64,000 nt of DNA from Armatimonadota bacterium (GTDB taxonomy: Bacteria; Armatimonadota; UBA5829; DSUL01). The notes beneath the pieces are model-generated. The model did no database searches. It saw nothing but the letters and a program-made list of their open reading frames with translations, and was not told the origin of the DNA. The stretch is from positions 2,062,162-2,126,161 of the forward strand of contig AP024674.1 in NCBI GenBank assembly GCA_025998755.1. Direction: 5' to 3'. Below are positions 28,741 through 58,597 of the stretch, piece by piece; within the stretch, counting starts at the first letter, position 1, and the number at the start of each line of letters is the position of its first letter. The position numbers were made by a program, and so were the translations under genes.

Positions 28741-28768
28741 GTTGACCGTTCGTTGACGGTGGCGCAAC
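28741..28768 (+). promoter_or_regulatory. Pho-box-like direct repeats upstream of the porin-pstS pair
   Basis: GTTGACCG (28741), GTTGACGG (28752) and a weaker CGCAACGA (28763) recur every 11 bases. An 11-base period of short direct repeats is the layout of PhoB/PhoP/SphR sites. The downstream genes encode a phosphate-selective porin and PstS, which fits. The second repeat also offers TTGACG as a -35 element. Confidence 0.45.
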
Positions 28769-28875
28769 GAGCGCAATGTAACCTTTCTGCGAGACTCAAC
28801 AAATGTTCCCGGCAGGGGGGAGCGCAACACGGGAAAGCGACCCGCAGACCGGGGACTCAAGGAGGAGCAAGAGCA

Positions 28876-30342
28876 TTGCTGAAACGACTCATTGGTCTCG
28901 GGCTGGCCGTCGCGATGCTTGCGGCGGTTGCAGCCCCGTGCGCGCGGGCTCAGGTGCAGGATGTTCCTGCCGATCACTGGGCTTATGACGCCATCCAGTC
29001 GCTCGCCCGGAAGGGTATCATTCTGGGCTATCCGGATGGCAACTTCCTGGGGCAGCGCTCTCTGACACGCTACGAGATGGCTGCCATCGTGCAGCGGATG
29101 CTGCGCTATCTGGAGTCTACCAAGACCGGCCAGAGCAATCCGTCTGCTCGCTCCAACACACCGTCCCCTGCTCCGTCTGTGTCCCCTTCTGATCTGGACA
29201 CGGTCCGGAAGCTGGTGGACGAGTTCAAGGTGGAGTTGACAGTCATGGGCACGGATCTCAAGCAGGTCCAGGAAGAGGTGGCCACGCTGCGCGAGCAGAT
29301 GGACTCTGTTCTCCAAGACATGGAGCCCATCAAGGCCCAGGTGCTGGATCCGGAAGGCACGCTGAACGCCGTCGCGAACGACGTCAGCAAGATGAAGAAG
29401 CTCTCCGTTTCCGGCTACGTCCAGGCCCGCTTCGAGGACTCTGCAGAGGCGAACAAAGACAGCCAGTTCTACATCCGCCGCGCCCGCCTGAAAGCGGAGG
29501 GCAAATTCGGAGAAAAGACCAAAGTGGTCTTCCAGATAGACGGAGGCGGCAGTGACAAGAACACTTCACTGACCCTCAAGGACGCCTATCTGGAGTATGG
29601 CTGGCTGGGCGTTCACGAGTTCGCGCCGAAGATCACCTTCGGTCAGTTCAAGTGGCCGTTCGGCTACGAGGTTGTGGAGTCCTCCGGCGTCCGCGAGACC
29701 CCGGAGCGCGCCGATGTTCTGCGGGCCCTGTTCCCGGGCGAGCGCGACCGTGGTGTGATGCTGTCCGGGCCTTCCGCCGCCCGCGTTATGTGGAACATCG
29801 GTCTGTTCAGCGGCGTGGGCATTGACCAGAAGGGCGCGCCCTGGTGGTCAGCCAACTTCAGCGACAACAACCAGCATAAGGACGTGGTCGGCAACATCCG
29901 GCTGCGCCTGACCGACAATTTCTTTATCGGTGGATCCGGCTACTGGGGCAAGGCCGGGCCGAACGCCCAGCTTCAGGACCGCACCCGCTGGGGAGCCGAC
30001 CTGCAGTGGTACGGTGTGGCTATTCCGCTCTCCATCAAGGCGGAGTATGTCTCCGCCAAGGAGCCTAGCGGAACGGCCTCCGCTCCGGTCAACCGGGAGC
30101 CCTGGGGTTACTACGCGCAGGCTGCCTGGTCGTTCAACCCGCACCTCAGCCTGGTCTACAAGTATGACACCTACGACGACGACGGGCTGGGCACCCGCGG
30201 ACGCCTGAGCAACCACCAGGTGGGCCTCATCCGCTGGCTGGACGACAAGAGCCGCCTGAAGCTGTTCTATCAGTGGCGGAAAGAGAAGCGGAACAGCATT
30301 GACAACGATGTGGCCATCGTGGAGTGGATCACCACGTTCTGA
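28876..30342 (+). CDS. SLH-domain phosphate-selective porin (OprP/OprO family)
   Basis: A 488-residue outer-membrane protein: signal peptide (to about CARAQ), one SLH domain (DVPADHWAYDAIQSLARKGI to TRYEMAAIVQRML), a short Pro/Ser linker, a coiled-coil segment (DTVRKLVDEFKVELTVMG onward), then a 16-18-strand barrel of the phosphate-selective porin O/P type (VSGYVQARFED, YIRRARLKAEG, GQFKWPFGYE). The SLH domain would tether the barrel to the wall. TTG 28876 with AAGGAGG ten bases upstream is chosen; an upstream ATG at 28753 lies in the Pho-box-like repeats. pstS follows after 19 bases. Confidence 0.85.
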   Translation: MLKRLIGLGLAVAMLAAVAAPCARAQVQDVPADHWAYDAIQSLARKGIILGYPDGNFLGQRSLTRYEMAAIVQRMLRYLESTKTGQSNPSARSNTPSPAPSVSPSDLDTVRKLVDEFKVELTVMGTDLKQVQEEVATLREQMDSVLQDMEPIKAQVLDPEGTLNAVANDVSKMKKLSVSGYVQARFEDSAEANKDSQFYIRRARLKAEGKFGEKTKVVFQIDGGGSDKNTSLTLKDAYLEYGWLGVHEFAPKITFGQFKWPFGYEVVESSGVRETPERADVLRALFPGERDRGVMLSGPSAARVMWNIGLFSGVGIDQKGAPWWSANFSDNNQHKDVVGNIRLRLTDNFFIGGSGYWGKAGPNAQLQDRTRWGADLQWYGVAIPLSIKAEYVSAKEPSGTASAPVNREPWGYYAQAAWSFNPHLSLVYKYDTYDDDGLGTRGRLSNHQVGLIRWLDDKSRLKLFYQWRKEKRNSIDNDVAIVEWITTF

Positions 30343-49208: not shown

Positions 49209-50399
49209 TCAGGCACGGCGGCGCTGGCGCGCCGGATGGGCGTTCTGGGTGGGAGGCTGGATCTCCCCGTTGACACCCTCTTCTTTCAGCGTGGCGAAGA
49301 TCATCTTGCCTGCCACAGTCTGCCAGACGCTGGCGACGATCACATCCACCCGCTCTCCGATGAGACGCTTGGCGCTCTCGATGACCACCATGGTGCCGTC
49401 GTCCAGATACGCGACTCCCTGGTTCGGCTCCTTGCCCTCCCGGATGACCGTCACCGACATCTCCTCGCCCGGGAGCACGACGGGCTTCAGGGCGTTGGCC
49501 AGCTCGTTGACGTTCAGAACGGTCACTCCCTGAAGTTCGGCCACCTTATTCAGGTTGAAGTCGTTGGTGATGATGACGGCTCCCAGATGCTGCGCCACGG
49601 CCACCAGCTTGGAATCCACCTCCTGCGGAAGCCGGATTCCCTCCGGGTCGAAGGTGGTGACCTTCATGCCCAGCTCCTTGCGCATCTGGTTCAGGATATC
49701 CAGCCCGCGTCGGCCGCGCGCCCGCTTGAGCGAATCGCTGGAATCTGCGATATGCTGAAGCTCGTCCAGAATGAACCGCGGGATGAGAATGGGCCCCTCG
49801 ACAAACCCCGTCCGGCAGATGTCCAGAATGCGCCCATCGATGATGACGTTGGTGTCCAGCAGCTTCGGAGATTGCCGCGGCACCTCCGGCTCAACAGGCT
49901 CGGCGGGGGCTCCCGGATAGTAGAACCGGAGCTGCTCCTTGATGCTCATCGTCGCGGCGACGCTGAGATAGCACAGCAGGAGCGCTATGACCACCGTAAG
50001 GCTGACCGGCATCCGGAAGCTGGCGGTGATGAGGAAGGTGAGGATCAGCCCGAAGACCAGCCCCAGGAAGAGCGCCAGCTTCTCCCGCGCGGACATGGAC
50101 TCCAGCGCCTCCTGCGCGGCCAGGATCTGCCGGTATACCACAGAGCTCACCAGGAAACCGGTAAGTCCGGCCGCCACCACGAACGCCAGCACCGCCCAGG
50201 CCTTGCTGGCATCGCTCGGAGGAGCGCCCGCCAGATAGTTTTCCAGCCACGGGGGCTTATCTTCCAGCAGCGAGTTGTACAGGCTGGAGGCGATGCCGCC
50301 AACCACCATCCCGGCGATGACAAAAACCACCGTCAGGATGGCGCGAAGCGCCCGGTTCTCCTTGCGGGGCACCTCCCTGTTGGTGACTGTCAGCCGCAT
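49209..50399 (-). CDS. PIN/TRAM-domain membrane protein (YacL-like)
   Basis: A 396-residue protein. Four hydrophobic helices cover about residues 20-155. The PIN nuclease domain follows with acidic residues in LLDTNVIIDGRILDI, FILDELQHIAD and IITNDFNLNKVA, then a C-terminal TRAM RNA-binding domain (LPGEEMSVTVIREGKEPNQGVAYLDDGTMVVI). It is probably a membrane-anchored ribonuclease. It sits 15 bases downstream of nuoD and 65 bases before ispDF. ATG 50399 is close behind GAGGGG. Confidence 0.92.
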   Translation of the reverse strand: MRLTVTNREVPRKENRALRAILTVVFVIAGMVVGGIASSLYNSLLEDKPPWLENYLAGAPPSDASKAWAVLAFVVAAGLTGFLVSSVVYRQILAAQEALESMSAREKLALFLGLVFGLILTFLITASFRMPVSLTVVIALLLCYLSVAATMSIKEQLRFYYPGAPAEPVEPEVPRQSPKLLDTNVIIDGRILDICRTGFVEGPILIPRFILDELQHIADSSDSLKRARGRRGLDILNQMRKELGMKVTTFDPEGIRLPQEVDSKLVAVAQHLGAVIITNDFNLNKVAELQGVTVLNVNELANALKPVVLPGEEMSVTVIREGKEPNQGVAYLDDGTMVVIESAKRLIGERVDVIVASVWQTVAGKMIFATLKEEGVNGEIQPPTQNAHPARQRRRA

Positions 50400-50414
50400 C
50401 CCCTCTGCGCTGCC

Positions 50415-51521
50415 CTACCTGTCCACTTCGCCCAGCACTATGTCCACGCTGCCGATGATGGCAACCGCATCCGCCACCTTCCACCCCGGGATGAGCTTGG
50501 AGATGATGTTCAGGTTGGCAAACGACGGGGCGCGCCACTTCAGTCGCACCGGCTTCGTGCTGCCGTCGCTGACTATGTAACACCCCATATCGCCGCGCGC
50601 GCTCTCGATGTGATGATACGCCTCCCCTGCCGGGGCTTTCAGGTTCATGTTGATCTTCGCCGATACCGGCCCTTCGGGCAGGCCGTCCAGGGCTTGCTCG
50701 ATGATGCGGATGCTCTGGCGCATCTCCTCGGTGCGGCACAAGTAGCGCGCCAGGCAATCCCCCTCGGTGCGCACAACGGCGTCGAACTCAAACTCTGAAT
50801 ACACGCTGTATGGGTCCGCTTTACGGACATCATAAGCCACGCCGCTGGCGCGCAGCACCGGTCCACTTGCTCCCCAGTTAACGGCATCCCGCGCTTCCAG
50901 CACGCCTACCCCACGCGTCCGCTCCCGGAAGATGCGGTTGTCGCTGAGGAGATCATCATATTCTCGGAGCAGGGCGGGCAGTTTCTTCAGGAAATCCCGG
51001 CACTTCCGATCAAATCCGGCTGGCAGATCCTGCGCCACGCCGCCCGGGCGCATATAGTTGAAGGTCATCCGCGCGCCGGCGGCCTCCTCAAACAGGTCCA
51101 GAATGGCCTCCCGCTCGCGGAAGCAGTAGATGAAAGGGGTGGTGGCTCCGAGGTCCAGTCCGAAGGTTCCCACAAACACCAGATGGCTGCTGATCCGGTT
51201 CAGCTCCATCATAATGACCCGGATGTACTCCGCCCTCCGGGACACCTCCATGCCGCACAGCTTCTCCAGCGTCTGACAGTAGAGCGCGCTGTTGAGCATG
51301 GAGGCAAGATAGTCGAACCGGTCCGTCAGCGGCATGAACTGGAAGTAAGTCCGCTTCTCCGCGGTCTTCTCCATACCGCGATGCAGGTAGCCGATGACCG
51401 GCGTGGCCTCCCGAACCACCTCGCCATCCAGCTTGATGATCACCCTGAGCACCCCGTGCGTGCTGGGGTGCTGGGGGCCCATATTGACTTCCAGCTCCTG
51501 CGTCTTAATCTGGCTCGACAT
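50415..51521 (-). CDS. nuoD: NADH-quinone oxidoreductase subunit D
   Basis: A 368-residue 49-kDa-type subunit forming the quinone site with NuoB. The N-terminus MGPQHPSTHGVLRVIIKLDGE, GYLHRGMEKTAE, LTDRFDYLA, the ARMTFNYMRPGGV stretch and the C-terminal SFANLNIISKLIPGWKVADAVAIIGSVDIVLGEVDR are all typical. Start ATG 51521 lies 17 bases inside nuoC, with AGGAAAG upstream. Last nuo gene here; nuoE onward does not follow. Confidence 0.95.
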   Translation of the reverse strand: MSSQIKTQELEVNMGPQHPSTHGVLRVIIKLDGEVVREATPVIGYLHRGMEKTAEKRTYFQFMPLTDRFDYLASMLNSALYCQTLEKLCGMEVSRRAEYIRVIMMELNRISSHLVFVGTFGLDLGATTPFIYCFREREAILDLFEEAAGARMTFNYMRPGGVAQDLPAGFDRKCRDFLKKLPALLREYDDLLSDNRIFRERTRGVGVLEARDAVNWGASGPVLRASGVAYDVRKADPYSVYSEFEFDAVVRTEGDCLARYLCRTEEMRQSIRIIEQALDGLPEGPVSAKINMNLKAPAGEAYHHIESARGDMGCYIVSDGSTKPVRLKWRAPSFANLNIISKLIPGWKVADAVAIIGSVDIVLGEVDR

Positions 51522-51944
51522 AGTCTTTCCTGAGCGGATGGCCCTGCCAACCGTTGGGCAGAAGGAGGTTGGACAGGTCCGGGTGCCCCTCGAAGTGGAT
51601 CCCGAACATCTCATGCGTCTCGCGCTCCAGCCAGTCCGCCGCCGCCCAGATATCTCGGACCGACCGGACGGAGGCGCCGTCACGCGGGACGGAGCACTTC
51701 ACGGCAAGCTTCCGGCGGTGCTCCAGGCTCATCAGATGGACCACCAGGTCCATCCGGCCCTCCTCAAGCAGATCCACTGCGGTCAGGCAGGCCAGATAAT
51801 CCATCTTCAGAGAGCGGTTCAGATCGGCCAGACACCCGTACCACTGATCCGGCTCGACGCGGCAGATAGTCCAGCCGTGGCTCTCCGTCACCTCCACGGC
51901 CCGCGGCCCCAGGACCGTCGAGATCTCTTCAGGGGAGACCGTCG

Positions 51945-51948
<4 letters not shown>
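51505..51948 (-). CDS. nuoC: NADH-quinone oxidoreductase subunit C
   Basis: A 147-residue 30-kDa-type subunit of the peripheral arm. The signature [36 protein letters not shown] near the C-terminus is diagnostic, and the [18 protein letters not shown] strand is present. GTG 51948 overlaps the nuoB stop (GTGA). It is separate from nuoD, not fused as in enterobacteria. Confidence 0.93.
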
Positions 51949-52471
<523 letters not shown>

Positions 52472-52481
<10 letters not shown>

Positions 52482-52843
52482 GTCAGCACCCCCTTCTTCC
52501 AGGCATAAACCAGCCCGAGGAGGAGTATTCCCACAAACAGCAGGATCTCCAGCAGAGCCAGAAGACCCATCCCGTTCGCGCTAAACCATTCCAGACGGAG
52601 AAAGGCGGGGAACATGAAGACGGTTTCCACTTCAAAGATGACGAAAATCAGGGTGAAGATGTAGAACCCCACCCGAAAGCGCGACCAGGCCTGTCCCACA
52701 GGCTCTTCGCCGCATTCATAAGTTTCCAGCTTCTGACCGGCCGGGTTGTCCCGGCGCACCAGCCGGGACAAGAGAAGGGAAAAGATTGCGAACCCCGCTC
52801 CGACCGCTGCGAAGACAAGTACGGTCAGATAATCGGACGGCAT
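52472..52843 (-). CDS. nuoA: NADH-quinone oxidoreductase subunit A
   Basis: A 123-residue membrane subunit with three helices. The loop [35 protein letters not shown] with ECG and the acidic FEVE motif is diagnostic. ATG 52843 is chosen with GGAGG eight bases upstream; the GTG at 52858 lies at the predicted transcription start. First gene of nuoABCD. Confidence 0.93.
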
Positions 52844-52862
52844 AGCCTCTTCCTCCACTCAC

Positions 52863-52999: not shown

Positions 53000-55015
53000 T
53001 CAGAAGGCTGCGCCGCCGAGCTCCAGCCAGAACTTCTGCCCGCGGTTCAGACCGTAGTCCCTGCCCTGTGGGCTCCAGGTCAGACGGATGTCCAGCAGCC
53101 CCAGCGGGCGCACCAGCGACATCTGGAGATAGCTGAAGCGGCTGGTGAACTCATTGCCGAAAGAGTCCTGATACCCCGCCGACGAGTAGCTCCACGAAAC
53201 GTCCATCCGCAGTCCGGCCACCAGCGGTCTGCTGGCAGCCGCGGTGACGCTTGTGGCATCCAGATCGGGGACCCAGCTCAGGTAAGCATAGCCGTGCAGG
53301 CCTGTGGATGCCCCGCCAGACAGCGTCGCCGTCAGGGACTTCCGATACGCCGACGTGAGCGAGGTACCGCCTGCGAACTCCTGATCCCACGCAACCGTGA
53401 TGTCCCCACTCTTCCCCAGCGAGCGCGCCAACACGGCGCGCCCCCGCAGGCTGGCGCCGCTGCGCGCTCCGGCAAGCTGCTCCAGCCCCGCGTCCAGGGT
53501 GAGGTTGGCGAACCCCAGCGACAGCGGTCGGTGCGTCAGCGAGACACCGGCGCTCTGGTAAAACCCGGTCTCCAGGCCGCTCCGCGATCCCACCGGCCCA
53601 CGCACCAGCGCTCCCGAGGCTCGCCAGGACAGTCCGGTCCCGCGAACAGGCTGCGGGCGCGTGCGCGCGTCCAGCCGCGTGGTCAGCGTGCTGCGGCTGC
53701 GCTGAAGGGCCGCGGCCGCGCGCGTCTGGCTGCTGCTCCCATAGGCCCCCAGCGATAGGTCCCACCCCGCCATTGGTAATGAAAGGCTGGCCGACCCTGA
53801 AAGGGCGTTTTTCAGATAATCCGAACGAGGCTGGTAGCGCAGCGACGCGCCCAGCCTCCGCCCGCCACTGAAAGTTTGATTGTGCATCCACTCCAGCGAC
53901 CGGTCGGAAGTGGGGAACGAATCCACGAAGAAACGGCCTCCGCCTCCCGCGACGTCGTAGATCTGCTCCAGCCCCAGCGAGAACCCCTGCCGAGGGCTGG
54001 CGAACCCGCCGTAGGACGACCCTCTTCCGGCGTAGCGGAACCGCACCGCGGCGCTGCGGGTCTGCCCGAACTGGAAGAAATACGGCAAGTCCACAACCAG
54101 CCCCTCGAACTGGGTGTAGCGGAGCTGCTGCGAAATGGGATTGAGCGCGGTCCCCCGATAATCGTAGAAATAGTGCGGCAGCGCCAGCACCGTGCGCCCG
54201 TTGACCAGCACCTCCGCTCGGCTGAACTGGATGCGCTCGCGCGGCCAGACAGTGGCGGCGTCCGCGCGGATCCAGGAGCGTCCCCGCTCCACCCGGAAAG
54301 GCTCGAACGAGCGAAGGTCCAGCGCCGGCTGAGGGCTCTGCAGCGTCAATAGATCCGATCGGAACGGCACCGTCTGCGGCTGCCGGCCGTAGATGAGCAG
54401 CGCCCCGGCGGACTCCTCCGGGCTGTACCACAGCGCATCGGCGTGCACCATGATGTCTCCTCTGGAGACCTCCACGTTCCCCTGCGCCCGCACCTGTCCC
54501 CGGCGCTCATCGAACTCTATGGCGTCCGCCGCGATGCGCAGCTCCCCGTGCATCAGCGCAGCCTCGGAGGCGATGAGCATGCCCTGGTCCACACTGTATC
54601 CAACGTCTCCCACCACGCGGAGCACGATGGAGGGGGGCTGATAATCGCCCGCCACGAACTCGACCTCGGTTACAGCGGAGGCGGCCCCGGCGATGGCGGT
54701 CACCTGCGCGATGTTCGGGGAAGACCCTGCGGTCAGAACGCCCACGGCCCGGCCGGCGGTGGTCCGGGCCACCGGCACGATGGTTCCCGCCGTCGTGGTG
54801 AACCGGACCTCGGTGCCGTCCGGCGCAGGCCCGCCACCGATCACGGAGACGATCGCGGTGACCTGCGACGTGGAGCGCCCGTCCGCAGCGATGCGCCGCG
54901 GCTGGGCATCCAGAGAGATGACCCACTGCGCCCCAACCGTCTCGGCCACTAAAACCGCCAGGACAGAGCAGAGCGCCAGAGTGAAGTTAAGCCGCTTGAC
55001 CGGGTCTGAAGTCAT
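53000..55015 (-). CDS. Ig-like/OstA/outer-membrane-barrel fusion (LptD-like)
   Basis: A 671-residue exported protein. After the signal peptide (TLALCSVLAVLVAETVGA) comes a Big_1-type Ig domain (ISLDAQPRRIAADGRSTSQV to VTEVEFVAGD). An OstA/LptA-like jellyroll follows (MHGELRIAADAIEFDERRGQ, VRAQGNVEVSRGDIMVHADALW). The remaining 400 residues or so alternate polar/hydrophobic and end in phenylalanine (LELGGAAF), as outer-membrane barrels do. LptD has jellyroll plus barrel; the Ig domain is extra and the LptD barrel motifs are weak. Lipopolysaccharide insertion is the likely role, but a generic porin is possible. ATG 55015; divergent from the TlpA pair. Confidence 0.6.
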   Translation of the reverse strand: MTSDPVKRLNFTLALCSVLAVLVAETVGAQWVISLDAQPRRIAADGRSTSQVTAIVSVIGGGPAPDGTEVRFTTTAGTIVPVARTTAGRAVGVLTAGSSPNIAQVTAIAGAASAVTEVEFVAGDYQPPSIVLRVVGDVGYSVDQGMLIASEAALMHGELRIAADAIEFDERRGQVRAQGNVEVSRGDIMVHADALWYSPEESAGALLIYGRQPQTVPFRSDLLTLQSPQPALDLRSFEPFRVERGRSWIRADAATVWPRERIQFSRAEVLVNGRTVLALPHYFYDYRGTALNPISQQLRYTQFEGLVVDLPYFFQFGQTRSAAVRFRYAGRGSSYGGFASPRQGFSLGLEQIYDVAGGGGRFFVDSFPTSDRSLEWMHNQTFSGGRRLGASLRYQPRSDYLKNALSGSASLSLPMAGWDLSLGAYGSSSQTRAAAALQRSRSTLTTRLDARTRPQPVRGTGLSWRASGALVRGPVGSRSGLETGFYQSAGVSLTHRPLSLGFANLTLDAGLEQLAGARSGASLRGRAVLARSLGKSGDITVAWDQEFAGGTSLTSAYRKSLTATLSGGASTGLHGYAYLSWVPDLDATSVTAAASRPLVAGLRMDVSWSYSSAGYQDSFGNEFTSRFSYLQMSLVRPLGLLDIRLTWSPQGRDYGLNRGQKFWLELGGAAF

Positions 55016-55120: not shown

Positions 55121-55645
55121 ATGTCCAGACCGACACTTCGCATCGCCGTGGCGGTATTCGCCGTGGCCATCCTGGTGGCAGGCGCCGTTTTGGCCCAAAA
55201 AGTCCGGAGCGGTAGCCTGGCGCCGGATTTCACCGCCAAAGACGTGAATGGCAAGATGTTCAAGCTCTCCAGCTACAAAGGGAAGGTGATCTTCCTGAAC
55301 TTCTTCGCCACCTGGTGTCCGCCGTGCCGGGAGGAGTTCCCCGAGCTGGTGAAGCTACACGAGAAGTATCGGAAGAACAGCAATGTGCTGGTGGTCTCCG
55401 TGGCTCTGGAGCGCCCCGAGACCATGCGGAATCTTAAGCCCTTCCTGGAGAAAAACAAGGCCAAGCATGTCGTTCTGGCAGGTCCGGAGACCGACTCCGC
55501 CGCCGAGAAATACGAGGTGCAATATATACCCACCAACTTCCTCATCGGCAAGGACGGCAAGGTGGCCGGGATTTGGGGATTTACCGGTCAGGATGACCTG
55601 AAGAAGTGGGACGCCGCCATCAGGGCGGCCCTGGAGAAGAAGTGA
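55121..55645 (+). CDS. TlpA/ResA-like thioredoxin-fold protein 1
   Basis: A 174-residue exported or membrane-anchored redoxin: N-terminal hydrophobic segment (IAVAVFAVAILVAGAVLA), AlkC/TSA-like APDFTAKDVNGKMF, the active site FFATWCPPCREEFPEL and cis-Pro in IPTNFLIGKDGK. ResA-type proteins reduce apocytochrome c or other periplasmic disulphides. Shine-Dalgarno AAGGAG. Its stop overlaps the start of the second TlpA gene (TGATG). Confidence 0.9.
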   Translation: MSRPTLRIAVAVFAVAILVAGAVLAQKVRSGSLAPDFTAKDVNGKMFKLSSYKGKVIFLNFFATWCPPCREEFPELVKLHEKYRKNSNVLVVSVALERPETMRNLKPFLEKNKAKHVVLAGPETDSAAEKYEVQYIPTNFLIGKDGKVAGIWGFTGQDDLKKWDAAIRAALEKK

Positions 55646-56193
55646 TGTCCGGCGTTTCTGCCGCTGGCCTTCGGCCCTGGGCTGCCTTGAGGACGGCGGT
55701 CCTGGCGGTGGGGATCGTTCTCACAGCAGGCGCGTTGACCAGCGCTGCCCAGCCGAAGAAGGGACATAACGCGCCAGCGCTTGAGGTAAAGGATCTGAAC
55801 GGGAAGGCCTTCTCCCTGAAGGAAGAGCTGAAGAGAGGGCCGGTGTTCGTCAGTTTCTGGGCCACCTGGTGTCAACCGTGCCGCGAGGAGTTCCCCCTGG
55901 TCTCCAGGTTGGCGCGTGAATGGCAGCCGAAGGGCGTTCGGTTCATCAGTGTGGCGGTGTGGGACCGTGAGGATGCGGTCCGCCGCTTCGTCCGGGAGCA
56001 GAAGCCGGTCCAACGGGTGGCGGTGGACCAGAACAAGAAGGCCTACAATGACTGGGATCTGGACGCCGTTCCTGCGAGCTTTCTCGTGGGACGTGACGGG
56101 AAGATAGCGGCGTTCTACGATGTGTTCGAAGCAACCGATCTGCCTGCCATCGGAGCGGATATCCGCCGGGCTCTGCGCGCGTACGGGAAGTAG
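55645..56193 (+). CDS. TlpA/ResA-like thioredoxin-fold protein 2
   Basis: A 182-residue paralogue of the previous protein. A signal segment (AVLAVGIVLTAGALTSA) is followed by APALEVKDLNGKAFSLKEEL, active site FWATWCQPCREEFPLV (WCQPC rather than WCPPC) and VPASFLVGRDGKIAAF. Start ATG 55645 shares one base with the upstream stop, so the pair is co-translated and may act as partners on the same or successive disulphides. The longer in-frame ORF from 55606 is not used. Confidence 0.9.
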   Translation: MSGVSAAGLRPWAALRTAVLAVGIVLTAGALTSAAQPKKGHNAPALEVKDLNGKAFSLKEELKRGPVFVSFWATWCQPCREEFPLVSRLAREWQPKGVRFISVAVWDREDAVRRFVREQKPVQRVAVDQNKKAYNDWDLDAVPASFLVGRDGKIAAFYDVFEATDLPAIGADIRRALRAYGK

Positions 56194-56297: not shown

Positions 56298-57140
56298 TTG
56301 GCGGACGAGCATCCCGGGATCGAGCCGGAGTTCTTCGACGTGTTCCACGACCTGCTCCGGTGGGGCGGCTGCGAGGTGCGCAGAGGGTACGGCGGCTGGG
56401 TCCCCGAGGTATATGACCTGATGGAAGGAGATTTTGAGGACGACATCCCGCTGGTCCTCGAGCTTGCCGAGGAGACCGGAGGGCCCGTGCTGGATCTGGG
56501 ATGCGGAACAGGACGCCTCACAATCCCAATGCTGAGGGAGGGGCTGGAGGTGTTCGGGCTGGATTCGGATGCGCGGATGCTGGAGATTCTGGAGCAGAAA
56601 GCCTCCCTGCTTCCGCCAGACGACCAGAAGCGCCTGACCCTCCTGCAGCAGGATATGCGGGTTTGCCGGACGCCGCGCCCGGCGGCTTTGGCAGTATGCT
56701 CTACGAACACCTTCCTGTATCTGGGCTCTCTGGAGGATCAGAGGCGAGCCCTCCGCGGCATCCACGGCTGCCTGATGCCCGGCGGCGTCCTCTGGCTGGA
56801 CGTCTTCGTCCCCAAGCCCAACCCTTCGGCCGACGAGCCCTACTTGACGTCCCACCTGAATCCCGAGACCGGCACGCTGCTTCTCTACGGAGCACAGACG
56901 CGCGAGGACCACTTCACGGAACGCAGCCTGGTGAACGCGTTCACAATGCTTCTTCCGCGCGACGGCCGGCCTCAGGTGTTCCTGCAGAGCTGGACCTACG
57001 CGTGGCTGCACCCAAACGAGCTCCGGCTGCTGTTGGAGGACTCTGGTTTTCGTCTCAGGACGCTGCTGGGAGACTATGACGGCGGGGAAGCCGATGAGTC
57101 GAGCGTTCAGATGATCGCCATTGCGGAGAGGAGGTCGTGA
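56298..57140 (+). CDS. Class I SAM-dependent methyltransferase
   Basis: A 280-residue cytoplasmic enzyme. Motif I is VLDLGCGTGRLTIPML, motif II GLEVFGLDSDARML, and motif IV falls around LAVCSTNTFLYLG; LMPGGVLWLDVFVPKP is the post-I strand. The C-terminal beta extension resembles glycine/sarcosine-type or small-molecule methyltransferases; substrate unknown. Start TTG 56298 with AGGAG nine bases upstream. The metallopeptidase gene starts at its stop (TGATG). Confidence 0.88.
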   Translation: MADEHPGIEPEFFDVFHDLLRWGGCEVRRGYGGWVPEVYDLMEGDFEDDIPLVLELAEETGGPVLDLGCGTGRLTIPMLREGLEVFGLDSDARMLEILEQKASLLPPDDQKRLTLLQQDMRVCRTPRPAALAVCSTNTFLYLGSLEDQRRALRGIHGCLMPGGVLWLDVFVPKPNPSADEPYLTSHLNPETGTLLLYGAQTREDHFTERSLVNAFTMLLPRDGRPQVFLQSWTYAWLHPNELRLLLEDSGFRLRTLLGDYDGGEADESSVQMIAIAERRS

Positions 57141-58597
57141 TGCCGCTGGATGTGACGGCGTACGAAAGGGAAGCCGAGCAGCTGAACGAGGAGCTGATGC
57201 GCGAGGGGCTCCTGACCGGGACGGGAGAGAAGGAGACCTACGAGGTCCGCGACATCTACGCCCGCCATGCTCATCTGTTCGAGCCAGACAATGTTCGTGC
57301 GCGGCTGGAGGAAAGGGTAGACACGCGCACCCTGAACCTGGCGGATTTCGCCGTGGAGGGACACATCGGCCTGCAACTGGCGGAAGAGTCGGAACGGCTG
57401 GTGAACGCGGAGCTGCAGGCCACGGTGCGACTGGACGGGCAGGATGCGCCGTACCGCTCAGCGCCGGTAATGATCCAGAACCAGGAGGATCGACAACGGC
57501 GCCTGGAGTGGGACCGGGCCTACTGCGCAGTGATGGAGTCGCTGAATCCTCTCTATTCGGAAATCTGGACCAGGACACGGCAGATCGCTGTGGAACTGGG
57601 CTTCCGCGATTACCGCTCCATGTGCGATGAACTGGGGCGGCTGCGGCTCGACTGGCTGAGAGGGGCAGCGGAGGAGATCCTGGAGGCGACCGCGGCCGGG
57701 TGGAAAGGACGCGTGGCGCAGGCGCTGGAAAGTGTGGGAGCCGCCGCGGAGGACGGGACGACCGCGGACATCAGCCACTTTATGCGCGCCAGGCGCTTTG
57801 ACGACGCGTTTCCGGCGGAGCGGCTACTGGTCTGCCTGAAGGAGACGCTCGCCGGGCTGGGAATCCGGATGGAAGAGCAGGCCAACCTGCACCTGGACAT
57901 CGAGGATCGGCCGCTGAAATCGCCCCGCGCCTTCTGCGCTCCGGTGCGGGTGCCTGACGAAGTGTGGCTGGTAATCAAGCCGCACGGCGGGCAGGACGAC
58001 TACAACTCGCTGCTGCACGAGGCTGGCCATGCCGAGCATTTCACCCACGTGGACGGGCGCCTGCCGTTTGCCTTGCGCGCGCTGGGAGACACTTCCGTCA
58101 CGGAGACCTATGCGTTCCTTTTCAACAACCTGCTGTTCAACGAGCGGTGGCTGACCAGGCGTCTGGGCAGGCGGGACTGGACCGAGTTTCTGGAGTTCAA
58201 CCGGTTCTGCGAGACCTGGATGCTGCGCCGGTACTGCGCCAAGTTGCTCTACGAGCTGGAGATGCACTCTGTGAACGAGGAGCGCGCGCGGCAGCTCTAT
58301 GTGGACACGCTGGGAAAACACTTGGGAGTGCGCATCAATCCGGAACGGTTTCTGGCGGACGTGGACGAAGGTTTCTACGTGGCTCAGTATCTGCGGGCAT
58401 GGATGCTGGAAGCGCAACTGCGGTCCGTGCTGGAAAGAGAGTTCGGGCCTGAGTGGTTCGCTGAACCCGGCGCCGGGGAGATGCTGAAAGGTCTCTGGAC
58501 GCTGGGCGAGAGCCTTGATGCTCCGGCCCTCGCAGAAAAGCTCGGAGAGAACGGCCTCTCTCCGGACGCTCTGATCGGGAGCCTGGTGGGCAACTAA
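57140..58597 (+). CDS. M3-like zinc metallopeptidase
   Basis: A 485-residue mostly helical gluzincin. The zinc site is SLLHEAGHAEHFTH (HExGH), with the third ligand in VTETYAFLFNNLL about 30 residues on, the M3 (thimet/oligoendopeptidase) pattern. The N-terminal part is helical and shorter than in standard oligoendopeptidase F. It probably digests peptides in the cytoplasm; no signal peptide. ATG 57140 with GGAGG five bases upstream is preferred to GTG 57137. Coupled to the methyltransferase gene by TGATG. Confidence 0.85.
   Translation: MPLDVTAYEREAEQLNEELMREGLLTGTGEKETYEVRDIYARHAHLFEPDNVRARLEERVDTRTLNLADFAVEGHIGLQLAEESERLVNAELQATVRLDGQDAPYRSAPVMIQNQEDRQRRLEWDRAYCAVMESLNPLYSEIWTRTRQIAVELGFRDYRSMCDELGRLRLDWLRGAAEEILEATAAGWKGRVAQALESVGAAAEDGTTADISHFMRARRFDDAFPAERLLVCLKETLAGLGIRMEEQANLHLDIEDRPLKSPRAFCAPVRVPDEVWLVIKPHGGQDDYNSLLHEAGHAEHFTHVDGRLPFALRALGDTSVTETYAFLFNNLLFNERWLTRRLGRRDWTEFLEFNRFCETWMLRRYCAKLLYELEMHSVNEERARQLYVDTLGKHLGVRINPERFLADVDEGFYVAQYLRAWMLEAQLRSVLEREFGPEWFAEPGAGEMLKGLWTLGESLDAPALAEKLGENGLSPDALIGSLVGN

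Follow-up and report, generated by a model that had tools for sequence, protein, structure and literature searches.

What does an LptD-like outer-membrane barrel do when it carries an Ig domain ahead of its jellyroll and when its gene lies away from all lpt genes? The established view of LptD is that it serves LPS only, and the question is raised by one gene in the 64,000-nucleotide stretch of Armatimonadota DNA analysed here (the window), which is part of a genome of 3.29 Mb, contained in one contig and 98.95% complete. The gene runs on the minus strand from 53000 to 55015 and encodes P0001, a protein of 671 aa in which an Ig domain, a jellyroll, and an outer-membrane barrel follow one another up to a C-terminal Phe. 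The best reading, to which a probability of roughly 0.45 can be given, is that the family of P0001, here termed IgLptD, is an LptD-derived barrel that serves the display of surface proteins.

Domain architecture of P0001

The reading frame of P0001 starts with ATG, which is also present at the equal position in a 93%-identical relative, and its product ends in ...GGAAF, with the terminal Phe that the original prediction had pointed out. The signal-like N-terminus, also predicted, corresponds to a hydrophobic segment at residues 1–29 (54929–55015, minus strand), for which the first structure model shows a low-confidence helix at residues 5–22. An Ig domain of the Invasin_D3/Big_1 type follows at residues 31–123 (54647–54925, minus strand). 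It is matched by the Pfam model Invasin_D3 at residues 34–123 with 35.3 bits (cut-off 33), and the family profile A1, built from an alignment of 26 members, matches the Ig domain of invasin 1cwv with an E-value of 1.9e-13. The Ig domain itself was thus correctly predicted, whereas its assignment to Big_1 was not sustained, as this model reaches 17.0 bits against a Pfam cut-off of 34.9.

The next domain, at residues 132–285 (54161–54622, minus strand), is a beta-jellyroll of the type found in LptA and in the N-domain of LptD. The Pfam model LptD_N matches residues 161–195 with 22.4 bits (cut-off 20.4), over 35 of its 113 model positions only; the NCBIfam model of LptA remains far below its cut-off, and a PDB search with the single sequence of P0001 gave no significant match. 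The A1 profile aligns with LptD 7omm over positions 145–321 (E 7.6e-9), with LptD 8h1r (E 1.6e-5), and with LptA 8onu (E 1.7e-7), and, together with the LptD_N and invasin matches, these alignments bear out the predicted relationship to LptD and the position of the Ig domain ahead of the jellyroll. The LptD barrel domain PF04453 has no match in P0001 or anywhere in the genome of the window, although this model matched just 2 of 14 control genomes and therefore misses distant LptDs.

Two AlphaFold2 models were computed, from 8 and 9 sequences, respectively, and the second supersedes the first (pLDDT 60). In the second model, which covers residues 124–671 with a mean pLDDT of 66.5 and a pTM of 0.39, the jellyroll is well modelled along most of its length (block pLDDT mostly 72–91), and the barrel, at residues 307–671 (53003–54097, minus strand), shows about 21 strands at medium-low confidence, the first of them with pLDDT under 50. 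A jellyroll joined to a large barrel, as had been predicted, is therefore modelled, with about 21 strands instead of the 26 expected. When the model was compared with the PDB by Foldseek, the best 15 rows were all LptD, with E-values from 1.7e-12 to 3.6e-9 and low TM-scores. VIA-align 2 ranked TonB-dependent receptors (Z 17), which are 22-stranded barrels, above LptD (Z 14.1) for the modelled barrel. Since both programs disagree and the global TM-scores are low (0.2–0.35), the fold assignment leans mainly on the sequence profiles. The barrel of P0001 is likely large according to the model, and a small porin barrel finds no support in either the second model or VIA-align 2. Overall, the Ig-jellyroll-barrel protein of the LptD type that had been predicted was recovered, except for the 26 strands, which the model does not show, and the Big_1 name.

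On one side of the gene lie nuoA-, nuoB-, nuoC-, and nuoD-like genes and a gene for a PIN-TRAM protein, all downstream and on the minus strand (49209–52858), which were named from Pfam matches, with the nuoC-like gene named by its position. On the other side, two genes for TlpA-like thioredoxins (55121–56193, plus strand; the first at 55121–55645) diverge from the P0001 gene, although mature P0001 is free of cysteine. At least one TlpA-like gene is kept at this place, in divergent orientation, in all three other genomes of the window's family. No lpt gene adjoins the P0001 gene.

Spread of IgLptD and its coexistence with other LptD-like proteins

The A1 profile has matches in 289 of the 291 genomes of the phylum, 275 of them strong (E < 1e-30), whereas a single-sequence query with P0001 found a match in 258. 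A lone match is not always proof of an IgLptD, given that other LptD-like proteins also match A1 (large LptDs with up to 120 bits). Sixteen genomes have no match below 1e-30, and in three (G133, G134, and G002) the match is another LptD-like protein. LptF/G and LpxC are matched in 284 and 278 of the 291 genomes, respectively. All 55 of the IgLptD members examined carry the Ig domain, which rules out a lineage-specific fusion. Moreover, variation in the family alignment is lowest in this domain, where the mean entropy is 1.76 bits, and higher in the jellyroll (2.20) and in the barrel (2.25). No viral relative of P0001 was confirmed with the single-sequence query.

The absence of lpt genes reported for this DNA holds for the neighbourhood but not for the genome, in which an LptC-LptA-LptB-LptF/G operon is located at C1:2293706–2296716, unlinked to P0001, together with LpxC elsewhere. 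The LptC of this operon scores 25.2 with Pfam (cut-off 21) and 35.8 with NCBIfam, just under the cut-off of 38, and LptF/G is represented once in the genome. The original prediction depended on a large barrel and on the existence of other Lpt genes; the barrel is large in the model, and other Lpt genes are present. Its suggestion that the Ig domain replaces LptA is rejected, because an LptA-like gene exists in the genome of the window.

A second LptD-like protein of 501 aa was found with A1 at C1:981206–982711 (L055:8707–10212, minus strand), next to a MATE transporter gene. It scores over the cut-off for DUF3769 and just under that for LptD_N, it contains a cysteine pair, and it is a candidate for the LPS translocon of this lineage. 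Profile A4, built from four proteins of this kind, matches all 47 genomes picked across families, in some of them weakly or through IgLptD itself. In about 39 of these 47 genomes (40 when one frame cut by a contig end is counted), there is a large LptD-like frame besides IgLptD, so that IgLptD would be redundant there as an LPS translocon. The large LptDs (about 720–1050 aa) have LptF/G within the fetched stretch at 26 of 29 loci, and short LptDs (about 420–670 aa) were collected from 21 loci, including that of the window genome. In E. coli LptD, a cysteine pair joins the N-domain to the barrel. By the simple rule of one cysteine in the N-terminal half and one near the C-terminus, such a pair occurs in 25 of the 29 large LptDs and in 19 of the 21 short ones, whereas mature P0001 has no cysteine and the alignment of 26 IgLptD members has no conserved cysteine column; 22 of 55 members contain at least two cysteines, whose positions differ between proteins. 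The comparison of A1 with A4 by hhalign (probability 99.4, E 5.5e-21) covers the jellyroll and the first barrel strands only (positions 137–380). IgLptD is thus very probably a family distinct from canonical LptD.

The coexistence of these LptDs rules out P0001 as the only LptD of the phylum, a situation that is possible, though, in G219. This genome of the window's family is 94% complete and contains two LptF/G and LpxC, and its IgLptD is its sole LptD-like match. Large LptD is absent from the genome of the window and from all four genomes of its family, two of which are at most 80% complete, and because of this loss an LPS role of P0001 is quite possible in this lineage. In families f1 and f27, mostly one or no LptF/G is present and large LptD is absent (four of four and six of six tested genomes, respectively), which suggests that LptF/G and large LptD come and go together as a pair. 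The 1.5-Mb genomes G133 and G134 have no match for LpxC, IgLptD, FlgD_ig, or the LpoB-like protein and have kept LptF/G and large LptD; as these losses fit a role in LPS export and one in surface-protein display alike, they decide nothing. These two genomes without an LpxC match (L057 and L058) raise the question of which cargo LptF/G and LptD transport in them.

A surface-protein cassette beside IgLptD genes

At most sampled loci, IgLptD closes a series of genes that all point in the same direction. The genes upstream of it on that strand form a recurring cassette and encode a protein whose N-terminal part is LpoB-like, a subtilase, at least one large protein, and an LpoB/CsgG-like protein. 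The subtilase often has a C-terminal FlgD_ig domain, and the large proteins end in FlgD_ig or contain Ig repeats. The LpoB/CsgG-like protein is exported and has 200–380 aa, and its similarity to LpoB, CsgG, and FlgT stays below the cut-offs. One LpoB-like match (G065:C82:111810–112532) sits within an open frame of 6946 codons.

The cassette was counted at 55 IgLptD loci, scoring every element that the fetched upstream DNA (0.7–13.3 kb) carries on the strand of IgLptD. An LpoB-like gene was found at 33 of these loci, within 320 bp of IgLptD at 32, FlgD_ig at 27, subtilase (S8) at 19, a homologue of the giant protein at 17, and an Ig-array gene at 4. At least one element occurs at 42 of 55 loci and in 21 of 28 families, while uvrB follows IgLptD at 10 loci. 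The loci were picked for breadth from the best-scoring matches and are kin by descent; three belong to the family of the window, and the window itself was left uncounted. As L040, L060, and L062–L068 supplied query sequences, a separate count was made on the 40 loci L120–L159, from which no queries were drawn, and it gave 26 with an LpoB-like gene and 30 with any element. By contrast, 20 control regions around LptF/G or large LptD, some with under 10 kb upstream, contained no LpoB-like, FlgD_ig, giant, or Ig-array gene and a single S8 gene, located on the other strand; the starts of the open reading frames were set by a rough rule. For the LpoB-like gene (33/55 versus 0/20), Fisher's test gives 6.8e-7, a value to be read in the light of the shared descent of the loci, which are not independent.

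The association is not universal. No cassette element was found at 13 of 55 loci, and 7 of 28 families have none; seven sampled IgLptD genomes (G225, G191, G195, G196, G140, G080, and G077) have no LpoB-like match. In one genome of family f20, IgLptD does adjoin FlgD_ig and an LpoB-like gene with a weak match. Of the 275 genomes that match IgLptD strongly, 27 have no FlgD_ig match, compared with 5 of the 16 others (p 0.02), a loose link that is confounded by genome completeness.

In the genome of the window, the cassette lies apart from the barrel gene. It occupies C1:1241280–1264634 (L190 and L191) and comprises the protein with the N-terminal LpoB part, the subtilase, a giant protein (read except for C1:1251501–1256999), the LpoB-like protein, and uvrB. 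In f2, f5, and other families, IgLptD sits between the LpoB-like gene and uvrB, whereas in all four genomes of the window's family no barrel gene is present at this place. Since P0001 is the only member of the IgLptD family in the window genome, it would act in trans on this cassette. In a midpoint-rooted tree of 59 proteins, P0001 falls in a clade of 10 (support 1.0) formed by the family of the window and one copy from each of six genomes of f2 and f5; the three of these copies that were scored all follow an Ig-array gene.

Possible functions of IgLptD and known counterparts

Sequence comparisons demonstrate a shared ancestry of IgLptD with LptD, its separation from the canonical LptDs, and its recurring partnership with surface-protein genes, and on this basis it seems somewhat probable that IgLptD works with surface proteins. 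That it translocates protein itself is an inference and somewhat less likely than not. A display role would work as follows. The Ig domain and the jellyroll would be placed at the periplasmic entrance of the barrel, the Ig-like tails of surface proteins could dock to this Ig domain or else to the LpoB/CsgG-like partner, the barrel would pass these proteins or anchor them at the outer membrane, and the subtilase may trim them. In the genome of the window, P0001, as a member of a sister clade that is tied elsewhere to Ig-array genes, would act in trans. In its boldest form, which is rather unlikely, a barrel of the LptD type that carries its own Ig adaptor would be the outer-membrane exit of an undescribed surface-protein display system. 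The proposed content of this system, with cargo ending in FlgD_ig or Ig arrays, a subtilase, an LpoB/CsgG-like partner, and an Lpt barrel turned from lipid to protein, is similarly speculative.

A display role is favoured by the coexistence of canonical LptDs, mostly near LptF/G, and by the missing cysteine pair in P0001, as well as by the cassette at 42 of 55 loci, with none on that strand upstream in the 20 controls, the presence of the Ig domain in every member examined and its low variability, the cassette beside uvrB in the family of the window, and the resemblance, far below the cut-off, of a FlgD_ig tail to the end of PorU. However, jellyrolls of the LptA/LptD type are lipid-handling folds in characterised relatives, and we know of no LptD-type barrel that exports proteins. 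Furthermore, the own neighbours of P0001 are nuo and TlpA-like genes, with the cassette elsewhere, the 13 loci without cassette and the several IgLptD genomes without FlgD_ig or LpoB-like match weaken the partnership, 22 of 55 members do carry two or more cysteines, and the cassette proteins may use another exporter, such as type IX. That IgLptD is the only LptD-like match in G219 also speaks for the serious rival, in which P0001, in this lineage without a large LptD, would take LPS from an LptB-F/G-C-A bridge and insert it into the outer membrane, the Ig domain being an added docking site or wall anchor. This is somewhat less likely than a display role, even though the true homology to LptD over the jellyroll and first strands, the best 15 Foldseek rows, the presence of LpxC and LptC-A-B-F/G in the genome of the window, and the lack of a large LptD in its family all fit it, because the 501-aa protein of the same genome has DUF3769 and the cysteine pair that P0001 lacks, and the genomic context of IgLptD consists of surface proteins and not of lpt genes.

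An export of lipid or glycolipid that anchors the cassette surface proteins, with the subtilase as the processing enzyme, would reconcile the lipid-type jellyroll with the protein cassette. This possibility is drawn by analogy with A-LPS, which anchors type IX cargo, and the weak likeness of the FlgD_ig tail to the PorU end and the subtilase at 19 of 55 loci are consistent with it, but we regard it as quite unlikely. Finally, IgLptD might be a porin or structural tether with a merely inherited LptD-like N-domain, as the best fit of VIA-align 2 to TonB-dependent receptors could suggest; this is highly improbable, given that the jellyroll and the first, LptD-like portion of the barrel are retained throughout the family and match LptD in a single continuous alignment.

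Among known proteins, LptD, as solved in the LptDE complexes 7omm, 8h1r, and 4q35, shares with IgLptD the jellyroll and, behind it, the large outer-membrane barrel. IgLptD differs from it in the Ig domain in front and in the lack of a PF04453 match and of the cysteine pair, and P0001 has about 21 modelled strands rather than 26 and is unlinked to lpt genes; canonical LptDs coexist with the family in the phylum. The large and short LptDs of the phylum mostly have the cysteine pair, and the profile alignment of IgLptD with them stops after the first barrel strands. Invasin and intimin (type Ve) resemble P0001 in the Ig domain itself (Invasin_D3 and Big_1), but in invasins the barrel comes first and the Ig passengers after it, whereas the order in P0001 is Ig, jellyroll, and barrel. 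Type IX secretion comprises the PorU sortase, CTD cargo, an A-LPS anchor, and the SprA/PorV translocon, and it is similar in that its large cargo proteins end in an Ig-like domain and in its use of a protease and outer-membrane barrels; however, the match between the end of PorU and the FlgD_ig tail of a cassette protein reaches 19.6 bits, far under the cut-off of 420. GfcD/YjbH has an LptD-sized barrel, an uncertain substrate, and periplasmic partners, and its authors speculate on an LptD-like role, although it is predicted to form a twin barrel with a central domain and belongs to a group 4 capsule operon; neither a jellyroll nor an Ig domain is described for it in the accessible parts of the paper (PMC8592465). 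No description of the IgLptD family or of an Ig-fused LptD was found among titles and opening lines of abstracts in the open PubMed Central literature.

If the display of surface proteins is the true function, a sister family spread throughout the phylum would represent an LptD barrel put to another use, and the deep-branching and little-studied Armatimonadota would gain a specific pathway by which their surface is assembled. According to the available text of PMC5007114, Armatimonadetes carry core LPS genes, and the diderm Firmicutes studied have no clear LptD/E. In the accessible main text of PMC8871954, lptD and lptE are confined to (most) true LPS diderms, and Armatimonadota are not named; in surveys of diderm evolution that score lptD, of which this is an example, caution against annotating IgLptD as LptD would be advisable.

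Other features were also seen in this genome. A gene on the plus strand of the window (57137–58597) encodes a protein of 486 aa with HEAGH, a zinc-peptidase-like motif, and has no Pfam match at 1e-3. Elsewhere in the window, at 28753–30342 on the plus strand, Pfam recognises an SLH domain combined with a Porin_O_P barrel. In related phyla, SLH-porin proteins of this kind link wall and outer membrane, and another SLH porin is encoded after the lpt operon (L034:4155–6020).
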